Source: Siphonodentalium dalli (Eukaryota; Mollusca; Scaphopoda; Gadilida; Siphonodentaliidae). From it: DNA of 64,000 bases. The stretch covers positions 64,183,897 to 64,247,896 of the forward strand of contig CP136063.1 in assembly GCA_032622095.1 (NCBI GenBank). The letters are read 5' to 3'. The translations under genes were made by a program, and so were the position numbers. The notes beneath the pieces were generated by a model, which saw only the letters and a list, made by a program, of their open reading frames with translations, was not told where the DNA came from and made no database searches. This document shows positions 3,034 through 64,000 of this stretch, piece by piece (within the stretch, counting starts at the first letter, position 1; every line of letters begins with the position of its first letter).

Positions 3034-4851
3034 ATTATAGCTCTAGATTGTATACAATTCTGACGTGAATTGATCAGTAGCCTTTGATTGGCCACCATGT
3101 AAACCGGGGGAGAAACTCAGGATACATGGGCCCAGTCAGAAAATGTGGATATCTGAACCTGAAAATTGCAAAAAAGATATAGACTGGCTTCAAGATTCCC
3201 AAGTGTTGGAAGTTTCCAACCTGGCGCCCCCACCCCACAAGATTGGAAATGTTCCCAACAGATGGAGAGAGAGATGATTTATTTTGCAAAAGAGCATACA
3301 TTATTTAATACAAAGCATACTAATTAAATGGAATTAGATTATTTGTCCATTAAACCAGTTTCTTGCCAATTGGGGGGGGGGGGGGGTAAATATGATATAG
3401 AAAACTAGATCACACCTGCTCCCTACTTCATGTCCACCCATCATGAGTTTTGGATCAAGTCTATTTGTATATGTCAAATATGGTTGATCACATGTTTAAA
3501 GTGTAGTGCAAATGTTAGTCTCAAAACGACAAAATCCCCACTATTAAATTGTTGTCAAATCAAATTAAGAGAACAATTTCAACATATTGTTGGTGTTAAA
3601 TTTCAAACCAATCTATTGTAAGATAAGAAATTTGTAACTGTTGAACATTTTGACCAAAGTTGGGATAGATACCAATTAAGCACCCCCTCCCACCCCCCCC
3701 ACCACCCCAATCACGTCATAACCTATAAGTGATTCAGTTGAATGTGATTTCATAAGTTATATTCATGCCTGGGCGACAAACATGTGTAAATGTCCCTCAT
3801 GCGGACTTCAGAGGAGGAAATATGATGGCGCTGCATGGCATTGAAATATTGTCACACCTGGATCTTTCAATAATGCCCAGATTAAGTAAATGAATATAAC
3901 ATATTATATTCTCTTGAGGGTAGATTTATATTACCATTGGTCATTTATATAGGCGGGCATGATTATGATACTTTACTCATCGGGACTTTCAATATTTTCT
4001 TTCTGCCTATTAATGTCACTTAATCTCCCGTATTAGGTATTTATTGTGTTATTTATTAATATACCTGTTGTATTATGCAAATTACATAAGCTACAGTCAT
4101 TATCTGGTTTAAACTGTCAGATACACAAGACGATTTTCGGACCCAAGTGCAGAAATCGTTCGAATAAATCTCATGGACAGAACCGTCACAGCCATGATCG
4201 GTTTGAAATAGAACCGTAACACGCACCCGTGTTGATTACGAGGTCACAGCTCCAAATTATCAACCCCTATCGGGATACTTTCTCAGCTATTTTACAAAAG
4301 AATAACACGGGTACACTTTATAGTCAGTGTTTGTCTTCAGAATGCGTTTCATATTTTATACGCCACGAAAAACCAAGAAATTGCGTCCACGTGGCTTGGT
4401 TTTCAGTGGTAACATGTTGATATTTACGCATTAACTCGCTAATACCGAGTTAATTGTGGTCTAGATTTCAGGTTTCGATAACACGGAACTTCTGCAGCAT
4501 CTGTTCGTTCAGGAAAGTTTACTATATTCAAGATATCTATAATTATGCGTGATTTTGTCACAAAATTGATTATTTTCAATCATCAGGAACCGTAACAAAT
4601 CAGGCAAGAACCATCACACTACCGGCGATAGAACGATTTCCGATGTAACAGTTCCTACACAGTGCTCCCAAGTGTGCAATATGACATTTCATATTGGACT
4701 CTGTGACGTCACTTGAAGATGTAATTCTAATCGAAGCGGAGTAACTCTATTGGTAAATGAATCGTGAAATTGTGATGCGCGCGCATCATTTTGGTGGATT
4801 TACCATTTAGCAGACGTTTCACTTCCTCATTCTATTTATGTTTTCACTTCC
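3034..4851. other. Intergenic stretch upstream of the first Crypton-type gene
   Basis: No coding region was recognised. It holds a G tract of about 19 bases near 3369-3387, a C-rich stretch near 3685-3710, and a perfect CRE-like palindrome TGACGTCA at 4704-4711, about 150 bp before the first exon. No TATA box is obvious. Promoter function is inference from position only. Confidence 0.4.
4704..4711. promoter_or_regulatory. CRE-like palindrome TGACGTCA
   Basis: Perfect 8-bp match to the CREB/ATF consensus, 141-175 bp before the two candidate start codons (4852, 4879) of the Crypton-type gene. An 8-mer can occur by chance, so its role is unproven. Confidence 0.25.
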
Positions 4852-45754: not shown

Positions 45755-45800
45755 CAATTGGCAACTACCCTGTCACATATGATCGCCCAACACACATATC

Positions 45801-46825
45801 TATGGAGCCCCGGAGGTGACATCCGAATTTTTTATTTTAAGTCGTGGCCACGAGAATAAAGTCGTGGCCACGAGAATATGAAGTCGTGGCCACGAGCATA
45901 TGAAGTCGTGGCCACGAGAATATGAGGTCGTGGCCACGAGACTACGAAGTCGTGGGCACGAGAATAAAGTCGTGGCCACGAGAATAAAGTCGTGGGCACG
46001 AGAATAAAGTCGTGGGCACGAGAATAATGTCGTGGGCACGAGAATATGAAGTCGTGGCCACGAGAATAAAGTCGTGGGCACGAGATTAAAGTCGTGGGCA
46101 CGAGAATAAAGTCGTGGGCACGAGAATAAAGTCGTGGCCACGAGAATGTGAAGTCGTGGCCACGAGATTATGAAGTCATGGCCACGAGACTATGAAGTCG
46201 TGGCCACGAGAATATGAAGTCGTGGCCACGAGAATATGAAGTCGTGGCCACGAGAATAAAGTCGTGGGCACGAGAATTAAGTCGTGGGCACGAGAATAAA
46301 GTCGTGGGCACGAGAATAATGTCGTGGGCACGAGAATAATGTCGTGGCCACGACCATATTCTCGTGGCCACGAGAATATTCTCGTGGCCACGACTTTATG
46401 CTCGTGGCCACGACTTTATTCTCGTGGCCACGACATTATTCTCGTGCCCACGACTTTATTCTCGTGGCCACGACATTATTCTCGTGGCCACGACTTTATG
46501 CTCGTGGCCACGACATTATTCTCGTGCCCACGACTTTATTCTCGTGGCCCCGACATTATTCTCGTGGCCACGACTTTATGCTCGTGGCCACGACTTTATT
46601 CTCGTGGCCACGACATTATTCTCGTGCCCACGACTTTATTCTCGTGGCCACGACTTTATTCTCGTGCCCACGACTTCCTAGTCTCGTGGCCACGACCTCA
46701 TATTCTCGTGGCCACGACTTCATATGCTCGTGGCCACGACTTCATATTCTCGTGGCCACGACTTTATTCTCGTGGCCACGACTTAAAATAAAAAATTCGG
46801 ATGTCACCTCCGGGGCTCCATACAT
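45801..46825. mobile_element. 1-kb palindromic element of ~20-bp TCGTGGCCACGA units
   Basis: The ends TATGGAGCCCCGGAGGTGAC and GTCACCTCCGGGGCTCCATA are exact inverted copies, running into ATCCGAATTTTTTATTTTAA and its mirror. Inside, about 24 units of GTCGTGG(C/G)CACGAGAATA with spacers AA, AT or TGAA run to a centre near 46345-46385, then about 20 inverted units lead out. The outer five or six units of the two arms mirror each other almost exactly. CATATC borders both ends, and the uninterrupted site CACACATATCCATTG is seen at 10677-10691, so the insertion is placed exactly (6-bp duplication). No transposase; all long frames here are translations of the repeat. The superfamily is not known to me. 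Confidence 0.85.
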
Positions 46826-46985
46826 ATCCATTGTACGGAACCAGTTAAAATTTTTTTTTTGATCGGTATCAATCTTGAGTCACTTTAATCGGCGTTTTAC
46901 TGACAAAGGAACTCGGCGTTTCTTGTTGACAACGATCTTTTCGGCTGTAACGCTGGGTGAACGTTCTTTTTCGGCAAGAATGGTA
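46826..46985 (+). repeat. Zinc-finger 5' region joined to a zinc-finger gene
   Basis: The left part lies at 45755-45800, before the palindromic element. CATTGTACGGAACCAGTT, ACAAAGGAACTCGGCGTTTC, TTGTTGACAACGATCTTTTC and ACGTTCTTTTTCGGCA match the other copies. This one lacks the 45-50 bp (GTATTTG..AAAGCAG) present at 15917-15965. Confidence 0.65.
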
Positions 46986-48182
46986 AAAAGAATAATGAAG
47001 AGATAACAAACCGTGAATACCAATGCGATATATGTGAGAAATCGTTCAACCGGAGCGGTTATCTGATATTGGCCATACATAAGAGATTTCACACAGGCGA
47101 TCGTCCGTATCAGTGCGATGAATGTGATAAAGCATTCACCTTGAGATATAGTCTACAACACATAAGAGAATCCACACAGGAGAGCGACCGTATACATGCG
47201 ACGTGTGTAATAAATCGTTCTCCCAGAACGGTCACCTAATGACCCATATAAAGAGAATCCATACCGGAGATCGTTCGTATCAGTGCGATATTTGTCAGAA
47301 AGTGTTCACCCAGAGCGGTTATCTGGCAGTACATAAGAGAATCCACACAGGCGATCTTCCGTATCAATGCGATGTGTGTGACAAATCATTTAGTAGTTCG
47401 TATCAAGTTACCGTTCATATGAGAATCCATAGTGGGGATCGTCCGTATCAGTGCGATATGTGTGATAAATCATTCACCCTGAGATATAGTCTTAAAGCAC
47501 ATAAAAGGGTCCACACGGGAGAGCGTCCGTATCAGTGCGATGTGTGTGAGAAATCGTTCGACCGGAACAGTTACCTGGTTGCACACACGAGATTCCACAC
47601 GGGAGAGCGCCCGTACCAGTGCGATGTGTGTGATAAATCATTCTCACAGAACAGTCACCTGATGACACATAAAAGAGTCCACACGGGAGAGCGTCCGTAT
47701 CAGTGCGATGTATGCGAGAAATGTTTCAACCGGAACAGTAACCTGGTGGCACACAATAGAGTCCACACGGGAGAGCGCCCATATCACTGCGATGTGTGTG
47801 GTAAATCATTCTCACAGAACAGAACCATGTTAGCACATAAGAGAATCCACACTGGAGAGCGTCCGTATCAGTGTGATATGTGTGATAAATCATTTACCCA
47901 AAGCAGTCACCTGAACCTGATTGCACATAAGAGAATCCATACGGGAGAGCGTCCATATCAATGTGATCGATGTGTGTGAAAAATCATTCACCGAATCAAC
48001 TAAACTGACAAGGCATAATATACTTCACACCAGTGATCATTCGTATAAGTGCGGATCTTTCTACAATCGTGATGTTCTCAGCTGGCGATACAAAAGAGAA
48101 GTCACCCCGGTAATCGCCCGCATATGTGCAATGTTTGTACGCATTTATTCGTTGAGAAGCGTGACTTTATGACATTAGATCG
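46986..48182 (+). pseudogene. C2H2 zinc-finger gene, at least eleven fingers, frameshifted
   Basis: Krueppel-type fingers with [16 protein letters not shown] linkers. The first, near 47018, reads YQCDICEKSFNRSGYLILAI and has two extra residues before its His pair. The second breaks near 47151 (a base lost in SLQ/HKRIH). An open run at 47203-47979 carries nine fingers, the ninth with two extra residues (SSHLNLIAH). A 4-bp CGAT duplication near 47968 ends the frame after YQCDRCV. No ATG is in frame before finger 1; a TGA lies just upstream (near 46959), so a start is missing or on another exon. C2H2 fingers bind DNA; the target is unknown. The tandem linkers are otherwise well kept, so decay is recent. 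Confidence 0.8.
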
Positions 48183-52972: not shown

Positions 52973-53009
52973 CTGCAAAAATATTAGAATTAGAATTTAG
53001 AAAGAGTGC

Positions 53010-53390
53010 ATAACAGTTATCTATGAAAACATAATTATTGTAGGATATATCTATACCATACTTATTTAAGTAATCAAATGTTTGCTAATTTACAGTTACT
53101 ATTAGTCTAACAACATCACACTTCTACTATGTAAATAATACAGGCTACAGCCATTTAAATAATCAATCAATAAATAAATAATAACCAGCATCATCACTTC
53201 CAGTACTACTAGTATACTATAGTCAGTTCTCACTGTACTGGTACTAGTACTATTATTAGTTATTTAGTAGGCCTACTAGTACTAGTATTACTAATAATTT
53301 ATTTTAAATTTAGTAGCGCAACACTATTTTATATAAATTATTTTCAAGGGTTCAATTCTTACCTGCATCGGTGATATTTCCATTGGTATT
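53010..53390. repeat. Left copy of the ~380-bp direct repeat (long target-site duplication)
   Basis: Runs from TAACAGTTATCTATG to CCATTGGTATT and equals 60060-60440 except at about 53075 (C here, A there). It contains most of intron 1, the donor complement (ACCTGCATCG) and 28 bp of exon 1 of the Crypton-type gene. Confidence 0.95.
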
Positions 53391-53910
53391 CCAGGGGTCG
53401 TATTTCAAGATGGCGGATTGCGAGTACCACTTATCGAATTGCTCTCGTTCATTTCCATTTTATCATAGTTTTCGATGTTACTAAACCTAAATCTCATGCT
53501 GGTTTCCTTTCGTTATGACTACGGATATTCTATATGGTGTTGTGTAGTTTCGTATGCTTCGCAATGTTAAATAACTGGCGATGACACTTAATGCATATGG
53601 AGTTTCCTGGTTATATCCCGAAAATTGGCGACTCAACCAGAGCTTCGGATAAAATTATGTGTTATTCTACAGTATTACAATACGGATGTAACTGTTATTG
53701 GAAATTACGGATTATCAACATACAAGGTTTGGAGAATCTTACAATTCAAGACATTGACTTTGCACAATTGTATATATTGTTGAATATGCAAAGTAGTGTT
53801 TACTAATTTGCATACCAAAATGACCACTATACTTCTGTGACATGATCGTATATAGAAAGGTGTGATAAACAATTCATTCTCGTTAATTGAGTTATCGCTA
53901 TAGAGAGACA
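53391..53910 (+). promoter_or_regulatory. LINE 5' UTR
   Basis: Includes AAGATGGCGG at 53407-53416, a YY1-like word often found at LINE 5' ends (as in human L1). Full-length LINEs carry an internal promoter here; activity is inference. Confidence 0.5.
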
Positions 53911-55620
53911 ATGGAGAGTTATAACAGTGACTACCATATCACCGACATTTCAAATGCGACCGGTGACGTGTCACACACAAGTGACGATCGGCCTATTCAG
54001 CTACTTAATTATTCCCGACTGAACAATATGAGCACTGACTTCATTGATCTACATTCGTATATCATCAAATATCTTGAGAGCCCATCAAAAGAAAGTTCAG
54101 ATTCATGCGAACAGCATCTTACGATTGTCCTGCAACACGTCAATACAACCATTAAAGATCGCGTTATCGAATCAATACTCTTTGCAGTTCAAAATGAAAG
54201 TTCACTAAAAGATATACGTGACTACATATTTCTGCAAGTCTTGAAATCTGAGAAATACCAATTCGACAAATCACTAGACATTAAATCTCGCATTTCTAAC
54301 AGAAATTGCGCACCTGTTAAAGATCGTCTAGCTTGTGATATTTATAACTTGTTGCTGTTCTTAGTTGATGAAAATCCTGATGTTATTGCAGAGCTAATCA
54401 GCAAAACTGTTCAAAGAAAATCTACAACCGTTGTTCCACGTCTCCCAGAATCACAAATCGTAGACTCCAAACTTGATGATTCCAAGCATAAAATTAACGT
54501 TCCTAATGCTATAATACAGATTCAGAAGGACATAGCTGCAATCAAAACGGAGTATCTGCCTGCAATGAATTATATCAATGAACAGCTTCCAAAGATAAAT
54601 GGTTTCATTGTTAATATTGAAAGCAGACTCACAAAAATGGAGGAGCGTCTAAACCCGGATAAATTCATGAAACCATTAAGTGACAGAATAAAAATACTAG
54701 AGAATAAATTCTTAGAACTAACAAATGCCAGTGTAATAAATTCGCAATCAATCTCACGAGTAGAAAGCGACAAACTCGACGGAATAGCTAGGATCAGATC
54801 GAATATTAAAACAGTCGAAGATGATATGTCTACGGTCCTTGAGAAGGTTGAAAGCTATATAAAATCCGAGAGGAAACAAGACGCTCAAATCGCCACACTG
54901 AAAGATGTAATTTCAAAACAGCCTGGAAAATGTTCAAATAACACTCAAAATATTAACATTGACAAAAACGTGTTGGAAACAATGAAACAGAATACAGACA
55001 GAATGCAGCAAGAATTCCGACGCCACACTAACGAGACGTGCAGTAAACTACAGACCATGATTGAAAGTGTGTCGAAATCACATACTGGGTCAATGAATTC
55101 CCAAACAGAGCTGATTAATAGTGTTAAGGTGCTTTGCACTTCTATTCAACAGAGACCTCAACCAAATTCGTATATGTATAAGGAGGATAACCAGAAATCC
55201 ACAAGTGTTCACATTAACAACCAATCAGCAGACGCCTCTATAAACAGCATCCCTGTCGATAATTCCGACCACAGTAGCGAAACCCGTGAAACGAACGAAA
55301 CGTATTCCAGAACAATTAACAAGGATCGTGTTTTTAGACAGAGACTTGATGAACCACTGAAAACAGCTAAAGTTTTTGTTAGCAACTTTGTTGATGAAGT
55401 CACAGTCTATGACTTGAAGGACGTTCTGACGCAAAATGACATTTCATTCACCAAAATTCTGTTAATGTCAAATAACTCGGCTAGAATCAATGTCTGTGAA
55501 TCTCAAGTTGATCAAGTTACAAGCAGGTATTTTTGGGCAAATCGGATTTATTGTCGGAAATGGATACCTTACAACGAGCATACAACAAAGCGTGAAGAAG
55601 AACGCCGTTATTATGATTAG
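53911..55620 (+). CDS. LINE ORF1 protein, 569 residues
   Basis: ATG at 53911 (MESYNSDYH) is the first in the frame, which is open without breaks. Residues about 190-340 are heptad-rich (IQKDIAAIKTEYL, ESRLTKMEERLN, KILENKFLEL, KTVEDDMSTVLEKVE), a likely coiled coil for trimer or dimer formation. A Ser/Asn-rich linker follows. The C-terminal ~80 residues (TAKVFVSNFVDEVTVYDLKD, FTKILLM, ARINV) look like an RRM-type fold. Known: LINE ORF1 proteins bind their RNA and act as chaperones. Domain calls are by eye; no CCHC knuckle is seen. Confidence 0.75.
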   Translation: MESYNSDYHITDISNATGDVSHTSDDRPIQLLNYSRLNNMSTDFIDLHSYIIKYLESPSKESSDSCEQHLTIVLQHVNTTIKDRVIESILFAVQNESSLKDIRDYIFLQVLKSEKYQFDKSLDIKSRISNRNCAPVKDRLACDIYNLLLFLVDENPDVIAELISKTVQRKSTTVVPRLPESQIVDSKLDDSKHKINVPNAIIQIQKDIAAIKTEYLPAMNYINEQLPKINGFIVNIESRLTKMEERLNPDKFMKPLSDRIKILENKFLELTNASVINSQSISRVESDKLDGIARIRSNIKTVEDDMSTVLEKVESYIKSERKQDAQIATLKDVISKQPGKCSNNTQNINIDKNVLETMKQNTDRMQQEFRRHTNETCSKLQTMIESVSKSHTGSMNSQTELINSVKVLCTSIQQRPQPNSYMYKEDNQKSTSVHINNQSADASINSIPVDNSDHSSETRETNETYSRTINKDRVFRQRLDEPLKTAKVFVSNFVDEVTVYDLKDVLTQNDISFTKILLMSNNSARINVCESQVDQVTSRYFWANRIYCRKWIPYNEHTTKREEERRYYD

Positions 55621-55679
55621 TTTGATTGATTGCTTGCCTATAGTGAGCACTATTAATTGTATTAACACGAAGTAATATC

Positions 55680-58600
55680 ATGTCACCACCCTGTCATTCT
55701 AACCTACACCATAAGTCGTATTTTACTATAATAGGTTTATTGCTGTGCCTACTATCGACATTGTGTATTCATGTATCTCTAAATTATATATCACAATATG
55801 TACCGCCGTATTTGAGCACCACATATATTATCATGACGTCCAATAACTGTAGCCAATTAAAACGGAGCTTCCTAACATGGAATGCCACAGGCCTAATGAG
55901 CTCTTCAGCTTACCTAACAAGATTTCTTGAATTTAATCATATCGATGTGGTAGGTGTCAGTGAACACTGGCTACATGAACACAATGCAGATTATGCGCAA
56001 TGTATCAGTAAGCAATATGATTATCACGTTGTCTGTGACGCCTCGCAACGTCTACCCATGCAGAGGGGTAGATATTCCGGCGGTGTTCTACTTATGTGGC
56101 ATAAAAAATACGCAAAATACGTTACCGCTCTTCAAATTCCAGATGATAGGATTGCTGGCATTCAAATGCAAATTAGCCGACATCAGTATCTATATATCTT
56201 CCAGATATACCTTCCTTCTACAAATCACACTCTTGACTTTTACAAAGAGTATTTACAAAAGGTCAGCACTGTTTTCGATACATATAGTTCGCTGGGCAAA
56301 ATAATTATGATGGGAGACTTTAATGCAAATCCGGACAAAAAGGGTCCAAGGAATTCTGCATTCAAGAAATTTGTCAAAGCGCTAAAATGTTTCTCTGTGA
56401 ATCACTCGAGATGCAGATACCCAAATAGTTCTACGTGTATTCCGTACAATAGTAATAACGGCACAGTTACTGATCACGTTTTGATTCCCACTGAAGACTC
56501 AGCCCTTATACCAGACATCAATGTTATCGATGACGATTCCCTAAGTGTGTCAAATCATCGCCCAATTTTGTTCACAATGCAATTTCCAGTTGACAATCAC
56601 GGCATTTACAACGTCACGAACAATAACTCTAAACCAAATTGGAAAAAAGTTAAATCAGACCCTTCAATTTTGCAAAATTATCGCAATGCTCTTGACTTAA
56701 AGCTATGTGATAGTAAAACTGACATTATTAACGTATCTGAAGTTGATGTTATATATAATGAGATTGTAAACGCGATAACATATGCATCTGATCAGTGTAT
56801 ACCCCGCAAGAGGTTCTCAAAACACCTCAAACCGTTCTGGAATAAAGAACTTAATAGCTTGCATAAAGAAATGAAAAAGTATCGATCTATTTGGATCAGG
56901 GATGGCCGACCCCGTGCTTGCTCTGGTGCTATAAGCTACACAAACTATAAAAACGCAAAGGCACACTTTCGAAGGTTGTATCGTTTGAAATCTTATAAGT
57001 ACATTCAGGAAATAAATCATGAAATTGATCACAAAGCTGAAGTTGACCACTACTCATTATTTAGGTTATTCAATCTGAAACGGTCTAAACGAGTCAGCCC
57101 CAATAATATGTTTCATCACGATGGAAAACTCTTAAGGGACCCTGAAGACATTGTGTGCGCATGGGGTGATTACTTTGAACAATTATATACGCCACTGACC
57201 TCAGAAGAATTTGATCAAACGCATTATACCTCAGTAAATAGTTTTGTCAATGACATAATACAAGAAAAGGCACCTTCTTCTATTGATAAACTCATTCTCT
57301 TCCCAGTTACATGTCAAGAACTCAAATCTGTGTATAAGTCTCTAAGCTTAAATAAAGCTGTAGGGTGGGATAACGTAGCATACGAGCATATTATATACGG
57401 CAGCGACTTACTCACAAATATTTTATCAACCTGCTTTTCCGGAATATTTAAATATGGTAAAGTTCAAAAAAATGCAAAGAAAGGAATAATTATAACTCTA
57501 CACAAAGGCGGTTCCAAAAGCAAAGATGACTTTAATAACTATAGAGCAATTACATTGATGCCTGCCCTATACAAAATTACTGAACGTGTGCTTCTGAACC
57601 GAATCGAGACATTCTCTCCCCGTACTCTAGAAGTTGACCCATTGCAGCACGGGTTCCAAAAATGTTTGAGCTCAAATATGGTGTCGTACATGACACTAGA
57701 ATGTATTGATTATGCTAAAGATGTTGGTCACAAAATGTACGCATGTTTCCTGGACGCAATGAAGGCCTTTGACACGGTGTGGATCAACGGGTTGTTGTAC
57801 AAACTATATGATCGCGGCATTCAAGGCCTCTCGTTTTCTCTTATACATAGCCTGATATCTGATGTCCAATGTTCAGTTAGGTATAACGGTACATCATCCC
57901 GTTGGTTCACAGTGTGTCAAGGAGCAAGGCAGGGGGGAATATTATCCCCTTCATATGATCTATGTGAACGACCTCATACTACAGCTGAGGAACTCAAGAA
58001 ATGGTCTAAACTTATATGGTATAGATTGTTCCAGCCCAACGCTAGCTGACGATATGTTATTACTTTCACTTACTATGACTGGGTTACGTAATCTTTGCGA
58101 CATCTGCTACCGTTACAGCACGGTGTGGCGCTATATGTACAACCCATCAAAATGTTCCGTTATTGTATTCAATGAATCTAAGGCGCGTGCAAACAAAACT
58201 GACCGTAGATGGCATATTGGACCATCTGTAATACCGGAAGTGGAAGAAGTTACCCATCTTGGTATTCCTTTAAATAAGTATGATTTAAATGGTGCATTTG
58301 TAGATACAGTTTGTCGCAAAATCAGGGGCACCTATCTCATGTTCTCTAATGCTGGCCTTTACGCCGGTGGGATAACGCCACTGAGCTGTAAGACAATATA
58401 CGAATCTATTGTCCTCTCAAAGTCGCTATTTGGCGCAGAATTACTATGGAACCTGGCACATAAACATGAGGAAGCTCTTGAAAAATGCCATAGATTTTGT
58501 CTGAAACAGGTTCAGGGTTTACCTACGCGTGCTAGAACAGTTATCGTCCATGGGCTCATAGGAGTTCACCCTATTATGAGCTATATAGATAAACGAAAAC

Positions 58601-59316
58601 TATCGTTCCTTAGTTCAATGTGTAATCTGGAACAAATTAAAACGGCCAAGGAAATTTTCATTTTCCGTCTTTATCAACACGCACTTGCTCCAACTACTTC
58701 TTGTAAAAATTTCTCCTCCGATATCATGGTAACAATGAATAAATACAAACTGGTAGACTACTTGCGTCTGTATTTGAAGGAATCAGTATTTCCTTCTAAA
58801 GAGAAATGGAAACAATTAACTAAAGCTCTCATTAATGAGACTGAGAGCGCGGCCTGGTCCGAGAGAATTCATGCTGATAACTCCCTAATTCGATTCTCGA
58901 AGATTCAGACCACGTTCGAAGTCTCGCATCTGTGGAAATTGTGCCGCCTGTTTCCAGAAAATAAATTGTCTTATTACAAAATGGCACAAATTATACAATT
59001 CTCCTGCGTTCCGTGTGATACAGGTATTTGTTCAAATTGCTCTCGCGCGTACTCCGACTACATGCGGCATGCAATAGTCCAGTGTTCCTCATTAACGTGT
59101 ATCCGTGACGAAATAGAATTTTCTGTTTTGTGTAGATTTGGAGTTCAAATTTACATACGCTTTGATTCTCTTTCAGATGAAGATAAATTATTATTCTTCT
59201 TGACGGCAAAATTTGAAGAAATTGCCTCTTATGTCGAAGATATCAACGACTTTGCAAATTTCATAATTAATTGCACTTGTAAACTATGGGAAGAATATCA
59301 TTGCCTCTCTGTTTGA
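55680..59316 (+). pseudogene. LINE ORF2: APE endonuclease and reverse transcriptase, one frameshift
   Basis: ATG at 55680; the endonuclease core starts near residue 60 (LTWNATGL). Its motifs are SEHWL, GGVLL, MMGDFNAN (about residue 212) and SNHRPILF (about 290). The RT has KAVGWDNV, LHKGGSK..NYRAI, FLDAMKAFDTVW (about 690) and GARQGGILSP (about 748). Frame is lost near 57948 and resumes as MIYVNDLILQL with the catalytic LADDMLLLS at 58042-58068. The thumb (HLGIPLNKYDLNGAF, LFGAELLWNL) and the C-terminal knuckle CSNCSRAYSDYMRHAIVQC follow, stop at 59314-59316. The lead before the endonuclease is hydrophobic (FTIIGLLLCLLSTLCIHVSL); translation may instead start at ATG 55833. All catalytic residues look present, so one indel separates this copy from an intact ORF. 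Confidence 0.85.
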
Positions 59317-60060
59317 ATTGTAGTTAAACAATTTATAGTATACGCTAGTAATGACATAATGCTATACATAACTCATAGAATCCATAGAATCCGAAGACAC
59401 GACAAATGAGTAAATATATATACTAGAGTGGTGCTGGGGAAATGGTCGGCTCCGAGTCGGTAAGACTGCACAAAGGCATTGGCGTTTGTGGGTCTTCCAG
59501 AGAGAGAGATCCCCGATTTGGGTCCAACTCCGGCTTGGTCGTCTCGGAGTATGCTATTTCTCTGGTCCCAGTTCTTTATATATAAAGATCTATATAACCG
59601 TATAATAACACATCACATTTAGCCTGTCGTGGAGAGCCAATTAGATATTTGACCATATGTTCATTCCATTACACGATAACGCTACATTGCCATTCTGGTC
59701 GTCTGTCTCTGTCTATACATATAACGAATGTGTGTCTGTTAGTATGAATACTTCATGCATGTAATTCGCCAATGTTTTATGTGTGTCTGTTAGTATGAAT
59801 GCTTCTGGGAGTTTGTTTGTTATAAATGGAAGTCATGCATGTAATTCTCCAATGTTATAGATGTGTGTCTGTTAGTATGAATGCTTCTATGTGTATGGTT
59901 GTTGCAAATGGAAATCATGTATGTAATTCTCATGTTCACCACTTAGATGATGACTGTAAATATGTTGACCTTTGTTACCTGTTTATGTTCTTATAATTTA
60001 TATTAATTGTATGCATTCTCTAAATATCTCCATGAATGGAGGAAATAAAGAATATATATA
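59317..60060 (+). other. LINE 3' UTR with short tandem words
   Basis: TGTGTGTCTGTTAGTATGAA recurs near 59729, 59779 and 59860, with GCATGTAATTC.CCAATGTT between. The end is AATAAAGAATATATATATA, a TA-type tail without poly(A). Confidence 0.75.
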
Positions 60061-60440
60061 TAACAGTTATCTATGAAAACATAATTATTGTAGGATATAT
60101 CTATACCATACTTATTTAAGTAATAAAATGTTTGCTAATTTACAGTTACTATTAGTCTAACAACATCACACTTCTACTATGTAAATAATACAGGCTACAG
60201 CCATTTAAATAATCAATCAATAAATAAATAATAACCAGCATCATCACTTCCAGTACTACTAGTATACTATAGTCAGTTCTCACTGTACTGGTACTAGTAC
60301 TATTATTAGTTATTTAGTAGGCCTACTAGTACTAGTATTACTAATAATTTATTTTAAATTTAGTAGCGCAACACTATTTTATATAAATTATTTTCAAGGG
60401 TTCAATTCTTACCTGCATCGGTGATATTTCCATTGGTATT
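60060..60440. repeat. Right copy of the ~380-bp direct repeat (long target-site duplication)
   Basis: Partner of 53010-53390. Here the sequence is continuous with the remainder of exon 1 (60441-60736). Confidence 0.95.
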
Positions 60441-60736
60441 ATTTCAATGATGCCACCATTATTATCAACATCTTCTATCAGTTTGTCCAGTCCAATTAGG
60501 CCATAAATCCCTAGTATTTCTTCTGGCTCTTCAAATTCAACTTCAGCCTCAGGCTCTGACTTAACTTCAAGCTCCAATTCTTCTATTTCCATTTGAGAAG
60601 CAGCATTGTAGAGTTCATTGTCATCAAAATTATTTATGAAAAAGTCTTCTTCTTGACTTAAATTAATTTGATAATCCATAATATGATTAATATCTATATT
60701 AAATTCGCCGTAGATAGCTAACGGTAGGTCTTCCAT
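60413..60736 (-). pseudogene. Exon 1 of second Crypton-type gene
   Basis: ATG at 60736 opens 108 codons (MEDLPLAIYGEFNIDI ... GGIIEIIPMEISPMQ), rich in Asp and Glu, ending in phase 0 before GTAAGA at 60412. The exon itself is intact. Its last 28 bp are duplicated at 53363-53390 as part of the long target duplication. Confidence 0.75.
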
Positions 60737-61214
60737 GTTTTGAACACCTGTTCAGGTAACCGTCAAACGTTGCTACATTGTCATGTTAGCACGTTCTTTT
60801 CAAATGTACCGCACTAATTTACGAAGAAACCCATATCTAAATTTAGCCCTGATGTTTGATGATAACAGGAAATGTTTTTTTTTACCAGAAAGTGGGGTTT
60901 TATTCTCCATTTTAATTTGTTTTGTTTAATTAATGTACTATTTTGCTGTTTAAATCGGCGATAATTTTTCGCTGAGATTTGGCGTCTTGCGTTACCACTA
61001 GAAACGGAAGTGGTTTCTTGCGATTTGATTGGTGGACAAAATAAAATTCCGGGTAAATTCGCCCCATGGATATTCGACTTGGTTTGCGAACTTTTTAAGG
61101 TATCACTACACCCAGTGATGCGGGAAACGACACTTCCCTCCATTGATAGATATTGTCGCTACCAAGTGTATCTGAGGGCCTTGACCAATCAAATGCACGC
61201 ATTTTAATCAAAGC
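60737..61214 (-). promoter_or_regulatory. Upstream region of the second Crypton-type gene
   Basis: No TATA box is evident just before ATG 60736. Overlapping open frames on both strands (60814-61143 minus, 61010-61207 plus) have no signature. Promoter location is inference. Confidence 0.25.
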
Positions 61215-61711
61215 GAAAGTAGTTGTAATTATAAAATAATCACTATGAACTGACTACCCCTATCCGGACATGCTTCCATCAATTAATATTCATTTTATTT
61301 CGAACATTTTATTGGGCCCGTTTATTTGTCTATTTTTAGAACAGACCATTCGAGTGATACCATATATCGATATTGAGCATTAGGCTGTTCCCATGGCTAC
61401 ATACCGAACGTCAAATCTCCCAGGTTAATTGATTGTATTGTATTATTCCATAGTTATAAGCGACAATGAGTACATTTAACCATTATTTGACAAAATCTGA
61501 CAAAATTACAGAATAAAATTTCTGGTCTCTGTAAACGGTAACCACTATTGTTCGTAAGCTAAACAACCATACCATTTTAGGCCAGAAATTATTCGAAATA
61601 AAATTAATATTAATCGATAGAAGCATTTCCGGACAGGAGTCTTCGATTCGGATATAATATTTTATACCCCGGTAACTATATAATACATGTTGGCAAAGAG
61701 ATAATCCACCT
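61215..61711 (+). mobile_element. TTAA MITE copy with decayed left end
   Basis: Interior and right arm (ATAGAAGCATTTCCGGACAG, AAAGAGATAATCCACCT then TTAA 61712-61715) match 49037-49542 closely. The left tip is lost before CTATGAACTGACTACCCCTA. Confidence 0.75.
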
Positions 61712-61715
61712 TTAA

Positions 61716-62220
61716 AAATTAGTCTTTTTTATGTACCGGTATATATTTATACTCAACGAATAACGTATTTAGCAATTACGTAGTTTGAATTGCATTGTGT
61801 TTATAACATGGGTAATCATTCAAACATAGTTGGGGTCTGTACTTAATATTCGATTAATATATTATACAAGAAATGATTGTATTCTGGCACGCTTTCCTGG
61901 AAGTTGAGCATAAGCTTACACAACAACCTTGGAGGTGGTATCACACAATCACATACGTAGTGCTAGCTCTACATAACTTATTATATCGCATAAACATCTG
62001 CTATGCACCAAGTCTGAAAAGGGCTATATTTTACGAGTTAGCTCAACCGACCAAATATAATATATTAATGACCAGAGGGGGCGGGAATCTATTAATAGTG
62101 ACAATTATATAATTCTTGGATAGGGACACAGCTTCTGGAAATGGTAGATTCATAAAAAATTCCTTTGAAAACGTAAAACATATTATTCAATATTTGTCAA
62201 CATTTTAAAAGTAAACGTCA
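61716..62220. other. Spacer with an unrecognised 79-codon frame
   Basis: A plus-strand frame at 61873-62112 (MIVFWHAFLEVEHKL..) has no signature. It may be part of the LINE relic that follows or chance. Confidence 0.25.
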
Positions 62221-62870
62221 AAACACTTGAAATTATGTTTACAATTTATATTCTTCCATTGATGAACTATGGTGATGTAGTCTGGGACAACGCCCCTGGC
62301 AAACTTTTAAAGATGGATTATCTCTTTAAATAACAAATTTGAAACAGTTGCTTGGGTATAACATAACAAATATGAACTGAAGACCCCTGCCCGGAAAGGC
62401 CTCTATCAATTAATATTGATTTTATTTCGAATATTTTATTGGGACTGTTTATTTGTCTATTTTAGAACAGACCATTCGGGTGATACTATATAGCGACATA
62501 GAGCATTTGGCTGTTCCTATGCTACGTACCGAACGTAAAATGTCCCAGATTTGTTGGTTGCATTGTTTTATTCGATATTTATATGCGATAATGAGTATAA
62601 TTAATGTTTATTTGTGACATTACAATAAAATTTATGGCCTCTGTTAACAGTAACCACTATTTTTCGTTAGTTAAACAACCACACCTTTTTTAGACCATAT
62701 TCGAAATAAAATTATTATTAATCAATAGAAGCATTTCCGGATCGGAGTCTTCGATTCAGATCTAATATTTTATACCCCGGTAACTATATAATACATGTGT
62801 ACAAAGAGATAATCCACCTTTAAAGAAGGTGGACCATATTCACATTGATGCAAGTGGAACAGTCACAATG
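62221..62870 (+). pseudogene. LINE reverse-transcriptase fragment split by a MITE
   Basis: 62238-62306 reads MFTIYILPLMNYGDVVWDNA then PGKLL; after the MITE, 62820 on reads KKVDHIHIDASGTVTM. Joined across one TTAA they form a continuous thumb segment (..ILP..NYGDVVWD.....L..V.IDA....T) typical of LINE reverse transcriptases. Confidence 0.7.
62311..62819 (+). mobile_element. TTAA MITE, complete, 509 bp, inside a LINE fragment
   Basis: AGATGGATTATCTCTTTAAA and the mirror of CAAAGAGATAATCCACCT form the ends; TTAA at 62307-62310 and 62820-62823. Removing the element and one TTAA restores the LINE frame (CTT TTA AAG AAG), which fixes the ends and the target duplication. Confidence 0.9.
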
Positions 62871-63640
62871 TTAAAGATGGATTATCTCTTTGTAAACATG
62901 GAGATATCCACTGGAAATATAATACCATTATATCTACAATGGCCGACCGCCTTAGAAGTGTAAACATTACTATAATTTCAATCCAGAATAATCTATTTTG
63001 GAGATCATAATTTGGACGATGATAGACTCTTCGAAATAGTTCATACATTTCACAATCTGAACGGTTAATATGACCACGAGTTGATACAAATCTCCCAGTG
63101 TCCCGACCGAGCACCACAGCTTATACTGTACCAATACATGTTGCATAAATTACCTCACCCCTCCCACATGGAATTATAAGGACCACCAAACGTGGCACCA
63201 TCTACAAATTTATTTACAAACTTATACGTATATATACGTACCGGAATATATACAATATAATACGGGGAGAGGAGCTTTATAATTTAAGTTGCATGACTTC
63301 TGCCCCAATCCCCATTGGGTACTCCCTCATTCATTACCTCCACATCATCATTTAATTGTCAATAATGTATATATGTTACAAAAAAACATGGTTTTCTGCG
63401 GTGTATACCCATAGTTGTGAGATTGATTACTTTCACCATATTGTTACCACAAAACTATAGGTTTACCGCAAAAACCATGGGTCTACCGTACTATAGTAAA
63501 ACATGGAACAAATTTTAAAAGGGATTGAAATTCAGTAATGGCCGAAAACATTTGGAACGGAATTTCGTAGCTAACGTGATCCCCGATCAAAGAAAATATG
63601 TAAGCCGTTAATGACGCTGGGAGAGGAGGCAACTCGAGAA
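62866..63640. other. MITE tip and non-coding stretch
   Basis: TTAAAGATGGATTATCTCTT at 62871-62890 is a lone TTAA-MITE end. A minus-strand 84-codon frame (62863-63117, MVLGRDTGRFVSTRGHINRS) has no recognised family. Confidence 0.4.
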
Positions 63641-63642
63641 GG

Positions 63643-63743
63643 TATGCGGCTCTTACGGACCCTGGCTCTTACGGACCCTGGCTTTTACGGACCACCGGCT
63701 GATACGGACCCTGGCTTATACGGACCCCGGCTCATACGGACCT
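63643..63743 (+). repeat. Short tandem repeat, ~17-bp GGCTCTTACGGACCCT
   Basis: About six imperfect units (GGCTCTTACGGACCCT, GGCTTTTACGGACCAC, GGCTTATACGGACCCC and so on). Confidence 0.8.
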
Positions 63744-63756
63744 CAATTAAATTATG

Positions 63757-64000
63757 CAATTTGCAAACTTATATTTATGAATTTAATATATTATTATGAT
63801 TGTCTTTTCACACATGTATCTGTATTAATTGAGAATTTATGTGATTTTTTTTGGTGATTTTCAAACTTATATTTATGAATTTAACCGATTTTTTCGGTGA
63901 TTTTCAAACTTATATTTATGAATTTAATATATAATTATGATTGTCTTTCACACATATATCTGTATTAATTGAGAATTTAGGTGATGTTCTGACTTGAAAA
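63757..64000 (+). repeat. ~100-bp tandem repeat at window end
   Basis: AAACTTATATTTATGAATTT recurs at about 63763, 63869 and 63906. The first and third are followed by ATTATGATTGTCTTT and CTGTATTAATTGAGAATTTA; the middle unit is shortened to about 37 bp. Confidence 0.8.

Follow-up and report, generated by a model that had tools for sequence, protein, structure and literature searches.

The LINE insertion and its flanking repeats

The 64,000-nucleotide stretch analyzed here (the window; contig C3, positions 64183897-64247896) comes from Siphonodentalium dalli and contains a long interspersed nuclear element (LINE), designated LINE-A, between two long direct repeats of host DNA. The LINE is about 6.67 kb long, lies on the plus strand (53391-60059), and ends in a (TA)n tail. 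The left repeat occupies 53010-53390 and the right repeat 60060-60440, neither being assigned a strand, and the right copy begins at the first-strand site GC/ATAA. A first-pass annotation had described an APE-type LINE bounded by direct repeats of about 380 bp with one difference, and had proposed an alignment of the two copies. The alignment covers 381 bp with one mismatch (99.74% identity), and the ends are exact: the LINE fills the interval between the repeats and both repeats abut it. The outer flanks are unlike each other, which agrees with the annotation.

The coding capacity of the element is that of an APE-type LINE. ORF1 is an open reading frame of 577 amino acids from stop to stop (53887-55620, plus strand) and matches no Pfam family at E 0.001. 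ORF2 changes frame in the window copy. Its first frame (55647-58049, plus strand) contains an APE-type endonuclease domain (Exo_endo_phos, E 1.1e-7) and the start of a reverse transcriptase (RVT_1, E 3.3e-14), while its second, overlapping frame (57856-59316, plus strand) matches no Pfam family at the same threshold. About 12 nt of extra sequence at the 5' junction (53391-53402, plus strand) precede the conserved LINE start, TTTCAAGATGGCGG, as delimited by comparing full-length LINE-A copies.

The duplicated segment appears to be part of a host gene. The minus strand of the 381-bp repeat has a 28-bp exon-like end, a splice-donor consensus (CAG/GTAAG), and intron-like sequence, and a splice-acceptor consensus, TTTTTGCAG, ends near 52973 on the same strand. 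By splice consensus, the repeat fits the end of exon 1, the donor, and intron 1 of a predicted gene. A minus-strand open reading frame at 50224-50820 matches the Pfam family Phage_integrase (E 3.2e-7), which is consistent with a Crypton-type gene. The domain match and, as consensus sequences only, the splice sites fit the earlier assignment of the repeats to host DNA of such a gene.

Paralogous sites of the host repeat

The host repeat is single at nearly all of the paralogous sites fetched. A search with the 381-bp segment covered the 2.23-Gb genome (9 contigs), and of the 23 matches listed, two are the window copies, one is a third copy at a distance of 10 kb beyond them, and 20 lie elsewhere. 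Sixteen of these 20 span at least 379 of the 381 positions, with identities of 80-97%. Among 18 paralogous sites that were fetched (L003-L020), a single copy of the segment joins the left flank (to 53390) to the right flank (from 60060) in 16 (L003-L018), and the remaining two (L019 and L020) are rearranged. The 16 single-copy paralogs serve as paralogous "empty" sites, and because the segment is single in them, the second 381-bp copy arrived with the LINE insertion.

Duplication lengths in the LINE-A family

Long direct repeats recur at LINE-A insertions elsewhere in the genome. When the genome was searched with the two ends of the LINE, the 3' end had 488 first-look candidates, 40 of which were scored (all 99-100%), and the 5' end had 32 matches. 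The copies fetched include 9 paired full-length, 10 predicted full-length, and 20 known by their 3' end; they were taken largely in order of score, which biases the sample toward young copies. Copies were left out when a predicted full-length element did not have its 3' end where expected (L045, L047, L049, L051, L053, and L057) or when the 5' junction was not reached (L063, L065, L066, L067, L068, and L072). The assessable set consists of 28 insertions with both junctions in reach, including the window copy.

In the first-pass annotation the repeats were taken for a target-site duplication of exceptional length, and ordinary short duplications at other copies were named as evidence that would count against it. 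Long repeats were found in 18 of the 28 insertions, 16 of them bounded at both ends and 2 partial, and an ordinary short duplication was found in one. Both the single-copy paralogous sites and this recurrence within the family support the reading of a very long duplication. The 16 bounded duplications range from 106 to 2496 bp (median 605, mean 865), and their two copies are 99.1-100% identical. Their lengths are 381 bp in the window, 568 (L023), 1538 (L025), 242 (L027), 1693 (L029), 1131 (L037), 641 (L039), 869 (L041), 2496 (L043), 352 (L059), 1006 (L061), 106 (L069), 119 (L073, ambiguous since it lies within a tandem array), 349 (L075), 297 (L077), and 2052 bp (L078). The partial duplications are at least 297 bp (L035) and at least 248 bp (L064), and no left edge turned up for either in the DNA fetched. 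Larger values first estimated for these two (about 4.5 kb and 2.3 kb, respectively) were dropped because the left edges were not at the predicted places, and an apparent 7.3-kb duplication at L061 was rejected because a nested LINE accounts for the excess. The bounded lengths fit an exponential distribution with a mean of 865 bp (Lilliefors-type p 0.90), and a log-normal distribution also fits. At L060, about 75 bp of target were lost, as judged against one paralogous empty site.

Searches with concatenated flanks scored 40 candidates each and were prone to flooding by repeats: one returned a single repetitive segment only, leaving the other segments undecided, and four more were partly flooded. 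The 5' flank of L031, where no repeat was found, matched only itself among the 40 candidates scored, which speaks against a hidden distant repeat there, though a single match in such a search does not prove that a flank is unique.

Some individual copies have features of their own. The spacing of matches at C1:243351859-243383939 suggests a 20.76-kb tandem duplication that carries L035 and its flanking repeats twice. A tandem-repeat block of about 2.6 kb lies inside LINE-A copy L074, near LINE position 3560 (L092 and L111; C6:109312150-109318756). By eye, the 5' flank of L070 resembles a 5S rRNA gene fragment (L109, about 1590-1790; C1:234283000-234287280).

Junction structure

The 3' side of the insertions is uniform. 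LINE-A has constant TA-tailed 3' ends, 5'-truncated copies, and a first-nick motif, as is the case for elements that use target-primed reverse transcription. The duplication begins at the LINE 3' end in all 16 copies with a resolved left edge, and the pre-insertion first site is /ATW (W being A or T) in all 16, with the edges of L059, L073, and L078 shifted by one base within the TA tail. The base before the site is C in nine of the 14 undisplaced sites tallied (13 resolved sites and L060). From this motif we infer that an AT-ending target strand may prime on the TA tail of the RNA.

The 5' side is variable. The second edge has no visible motif and is AT-ending in 2 of 16 copies, these edges being blurred by microhomology. 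Seven truncated copies have 5'-junction microhomologies of 2, 0, 5, 2, 2, 4, and 8 nt, or 23 nt together (p ~1e-6 against random joining). The alignments were scored by hand for this count, and the value of 8 is a TA run. L077 was excluded for its filler, and full-length copies were kept out of the count because their LINE start is uncertain. Fillers are about 12 nt in the window copy, 37 nt in L077, and about 60 nt in L043; no convincing nearby template was found for the six junctions tried.

Other LINEs in the genome

A second, related family, LINE-B, shares the looseness of LINE-A, but it makes long duplications less often. The LINE-B copy in L107 (C1:220769200-220779050) has an open ORF1 of 680 amino acids and an open ORF2 of 1199 amino acids with endonuclease and reverse transcriptase. 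It is the LINE nested in the truncated LINE-A copy L061, and about 85 bp of LINE-A are missing at its insertion site. The endonucleases of the two families are about 50% identical. Eighteen of 40 listed LINE-B copies were fetched, and the 5' junction was reached in 10 and not in 8. Three of the 10 have duplications, of 662, 172, and 46 bp. The LINE-B ORF1 has a weak GDSL match (24 bits against a cut-off of 32.9). Three LINE-B 3' ends in the same orientation lie about 5.5 kb apart at C6:72546140-72557722, a spacing that would fit tandem amplification of the LINE together with its flank.

An unrelated LINE family with an (ATTC)n tail provides a control of one insertion: a copy in the Crypton paralog L003 has a 5-bp duplication. 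Nine further copies with this tail are longer than the DNA fetched, and their 5' junctions were not reached.

APE-type endonucleases usually have the motif S-D-H. The endonucleases of LINE-A (window, L054, L108, L109, L110, and L112) and of LINE-B have S-N-H instead, located at about 56547-56570 in ORF2 of the window copy. This difference is a lead only. The S-N-H residue could not be placed on a structure model of the endonuclease, the model being of low confidence (mean pLDDT 43), and searching the PDB with the endonuclease of LINE-B returned nothing useful.

A later tandem duplication

The third 381-bp copy lies outside the window (C3:64253948-64254328), within a direct tandem duplication with a period of 9,992 bp. 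The first unit begins inside the LINE, occupies 57872-64000 on the plus strand, and runs past the window (C3:64247897 onward). In window-extended coordinates, 57872-67865 and 67864-77857 differ at 6 of 9,994 positions, and the duplication contains the 3' part of the LINE; it extends to C3:64261753 (L001 and L002). Bases private to the window LINE at 58344, 59425, and 59970 are found in the second unit and are absent from 9, 12, and 11 other readable copies. Because these three substitutions are shared, the tandem duplication very likely postdates the LINE insertion, its second unit having been made from the window LINE. The third copy derives from this event and says nothing about how the 381-bp duplication arose. 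An alternative origin for the third copy, another LINE insertion that duplicated 7.8 kb, was weighed, and the private substitutions and the even divergence fit a tandem duplication better; a LINE copied from its neighbor is less likely. The 9,992-bp-period duplication could be a real event or a duplication made in assembly.

Comparison with other LINE clades

Target-site duplications of LINEs are held to be short and set by clade. According to PMC4245944, L1, L2, CR1, and RTE have clade-specific peaks between 3 and 15 bp. ZfL2-2 in wild-type DT40 cells, as reported in PMC2666801, made changes of 20 bp or less in 24 of 25 insertions, and the remaining one was a duplication of 1228 bp. LINE-A resembles ZfL2-1 and ZfL2-2 of the L2/CR1 clades in its APE endonuclease, reverse transcriptase, extra 5'-junction nucleotides, and microhomology (PMC4245944, PMC2666801). 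In contrast, duplications in those clades peak at 3-5 bp (PMC4245944), whereas 18 of 28 LINE-A insertions have long ones. The likeness of LINE-A and LINE-B to the L2/CR1 group is by features only, namely the 3' repeat tail and the weak LINE-B GDSL match. A literature search that left most subscription journals uncovered returned single cases and a study of nucleotide excision repair, but no comparable natural LINE family.

Mechanism of insertion

The 381-bp repeats are probably a true target-site duplication, made by target-primed reverse transcription that had no near second cut and captured a distant end instead. The first-pass annotation had suggested an unusual second-strand cleavage or a different insertion route, and the family-wide occurrence of long, variable duplications argues for such a departure. 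The LINE would nick the bottom strand at the constant site, and reverse transcription would be primed there. The lengths suggest that no second-strand cut is made at a set short distance, unlike in published L1, L2, CR1, and RTE elements. The LINE 5' end would then be joined to a top-strand 3' end at a variable distance of 0.1-2.5 kb downstream, and many of the observed joins have a short filler or microhomology over a few bases. The stretch between the two sites would be filled in or copied and so be duplicated. The distant 3' end could be pre-existing or nascent; a replication fork passing the site could supply it, its leading strand changing template to the LINE cDNA. A captured end that lay upstream would result in loss of target DNA, as may have happened in the one copy lacking about 75 bp. 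Gains outnumber losses 19 to 1 among 20 resolved LINE-A outcomes, which favors a nascent fork end.

Several observations weigh against this interpretation. One insertion (L076) has an ordinary duplication of about 11 bp, the sole one among the 28, and no repeat was found in eight others (L021, L031, L033, L055, L062, L070, L071, and L074). No repeat was found in seven of the 10 LINE-B insertions either, four of which were viewed with about 1.5 kb more of 3' flank. The insertions without repeats in both families may be losses, blunt joins, or longer events alike, and the eight LINE-A copies could be hidden losses, which would weaken the excess of gains. An end left by a random nick, one growing at a fork, and copying from the sister chromatid would each be compatible with the data, and the evidence consists of assembled sequence and paralogous sites.

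The last of these routes is the alternative that survives best, and it is possible but rather unlikely. The 3' end of the cDNA would invade at a downstream microhomology, either in the sister chromatid or in DNA close by, and break-induced copying rather than a filled stagger would make the duplication. Microhomology, short fillers, and the mixture of gains and losses suit such template switching, but no filler was traced to a nearby template, and end capture is equally compatible with these features.

A cause in the host is less likely again. A second-strand or flap nuclease, such as the nucleotide excision repair machinery, could be lost or weak in the germline. In human cells deficient in this repair pathway, L1 insertions are mostly at the usual first-nick sites but have duplications of 5 bp to 5.3 kb; the median is 1495 bp, and complementation of the cells brings it to 14 bp (PMC5223499). 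The LINE-A lengths resemble these closely and lie within a broad 0.1-5 kb, and LINE-B is affected too. However, the L1 insertions were made in cultured mutant cells, while the LINE-A insertions are native genomic copies of another LINE family, and XPA and ERCC1 domains are retained in their host genome. The two repair genes looked at are represented by an XPA_C match (E 3.2e-19) and two exon matches of Rad10/ERCC1, so their plain absence is not the reason for the long duplications. The 5-bp duplication of the (ATTC)n-tailed LINE in the same genome also argues against a host cause, with the limit that it is one insertion only. For the second primer, the authors of PMC5223499 proposed either an end that replication or repair leaves exposed or a distant nick of natural origin, and this idea would fit LINE-A as well.

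A programmed double cut by the LINE endonuclease, with a wide stagger, is very unlikely. The precedent is R9 of bdelloid rotifers, reportedly an rDNA-specific relative of R2 with a long duplication of fixed length, given as about 126 bp in the first-pass annotation. The likeness drawn there stands in that both LINEs have an exceptionally long duplication, and it fails for the fixed length: R9 is said to have one length at one rDNA site, whereas LINE-A duplications of 106-2496 bp are found at many unrelated sites. The lengths thus vary more than twentyfold, and the first-site motif is absent from the second site. Least probable of all is that the repeats are a pre-existing tandem duplication, a product of recombination after insertion, or an assembly artifact: a recent 10-kb tandem duplication does adjoin the locus and a 20.8-kb one may surround L035, but the segment is single in 16 of 18 paralogs, and the same architecture is found at 17 other insertions in different host sequence, starting at the LINE 3' end in the 15 with a resolved edge.

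For the lineage as a whole, distant end capture leads to a more tentative proposal. The lineage of LINE-A and LINE-B may have dropped programmed second-strand cleavage and may capture a 3' end far along the top strand, in all likelihood one newly made at a fork, so that with each new copy 0.1-2.5 kb of host DNA, which can contain exons and splice sites, would usually become a segmental duplication.

Other features of the window

The region at 45800-46862 is repetitive, matches itself on both strands, and is open in several frames. An open reading frame at 47152-47979 encodes a zinc-finger array, the repeats of which were seen by eye.

Implications

A natural family in which an exponential-like duplication of 0.1-2.5 kb is the commonest outcome suggests that LINE insertion can routinely be completed with no second cut close by. 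LINE-A is a native system for studying second-strand cleavage and joining, and in particular for asking what supplies the second 3' end. It could also be used to probe the link to nucleotide excision repair, which in the papers found has so far been reported from cultured human cells. LINEs of this kind would be a steady source of small segmental duplications.

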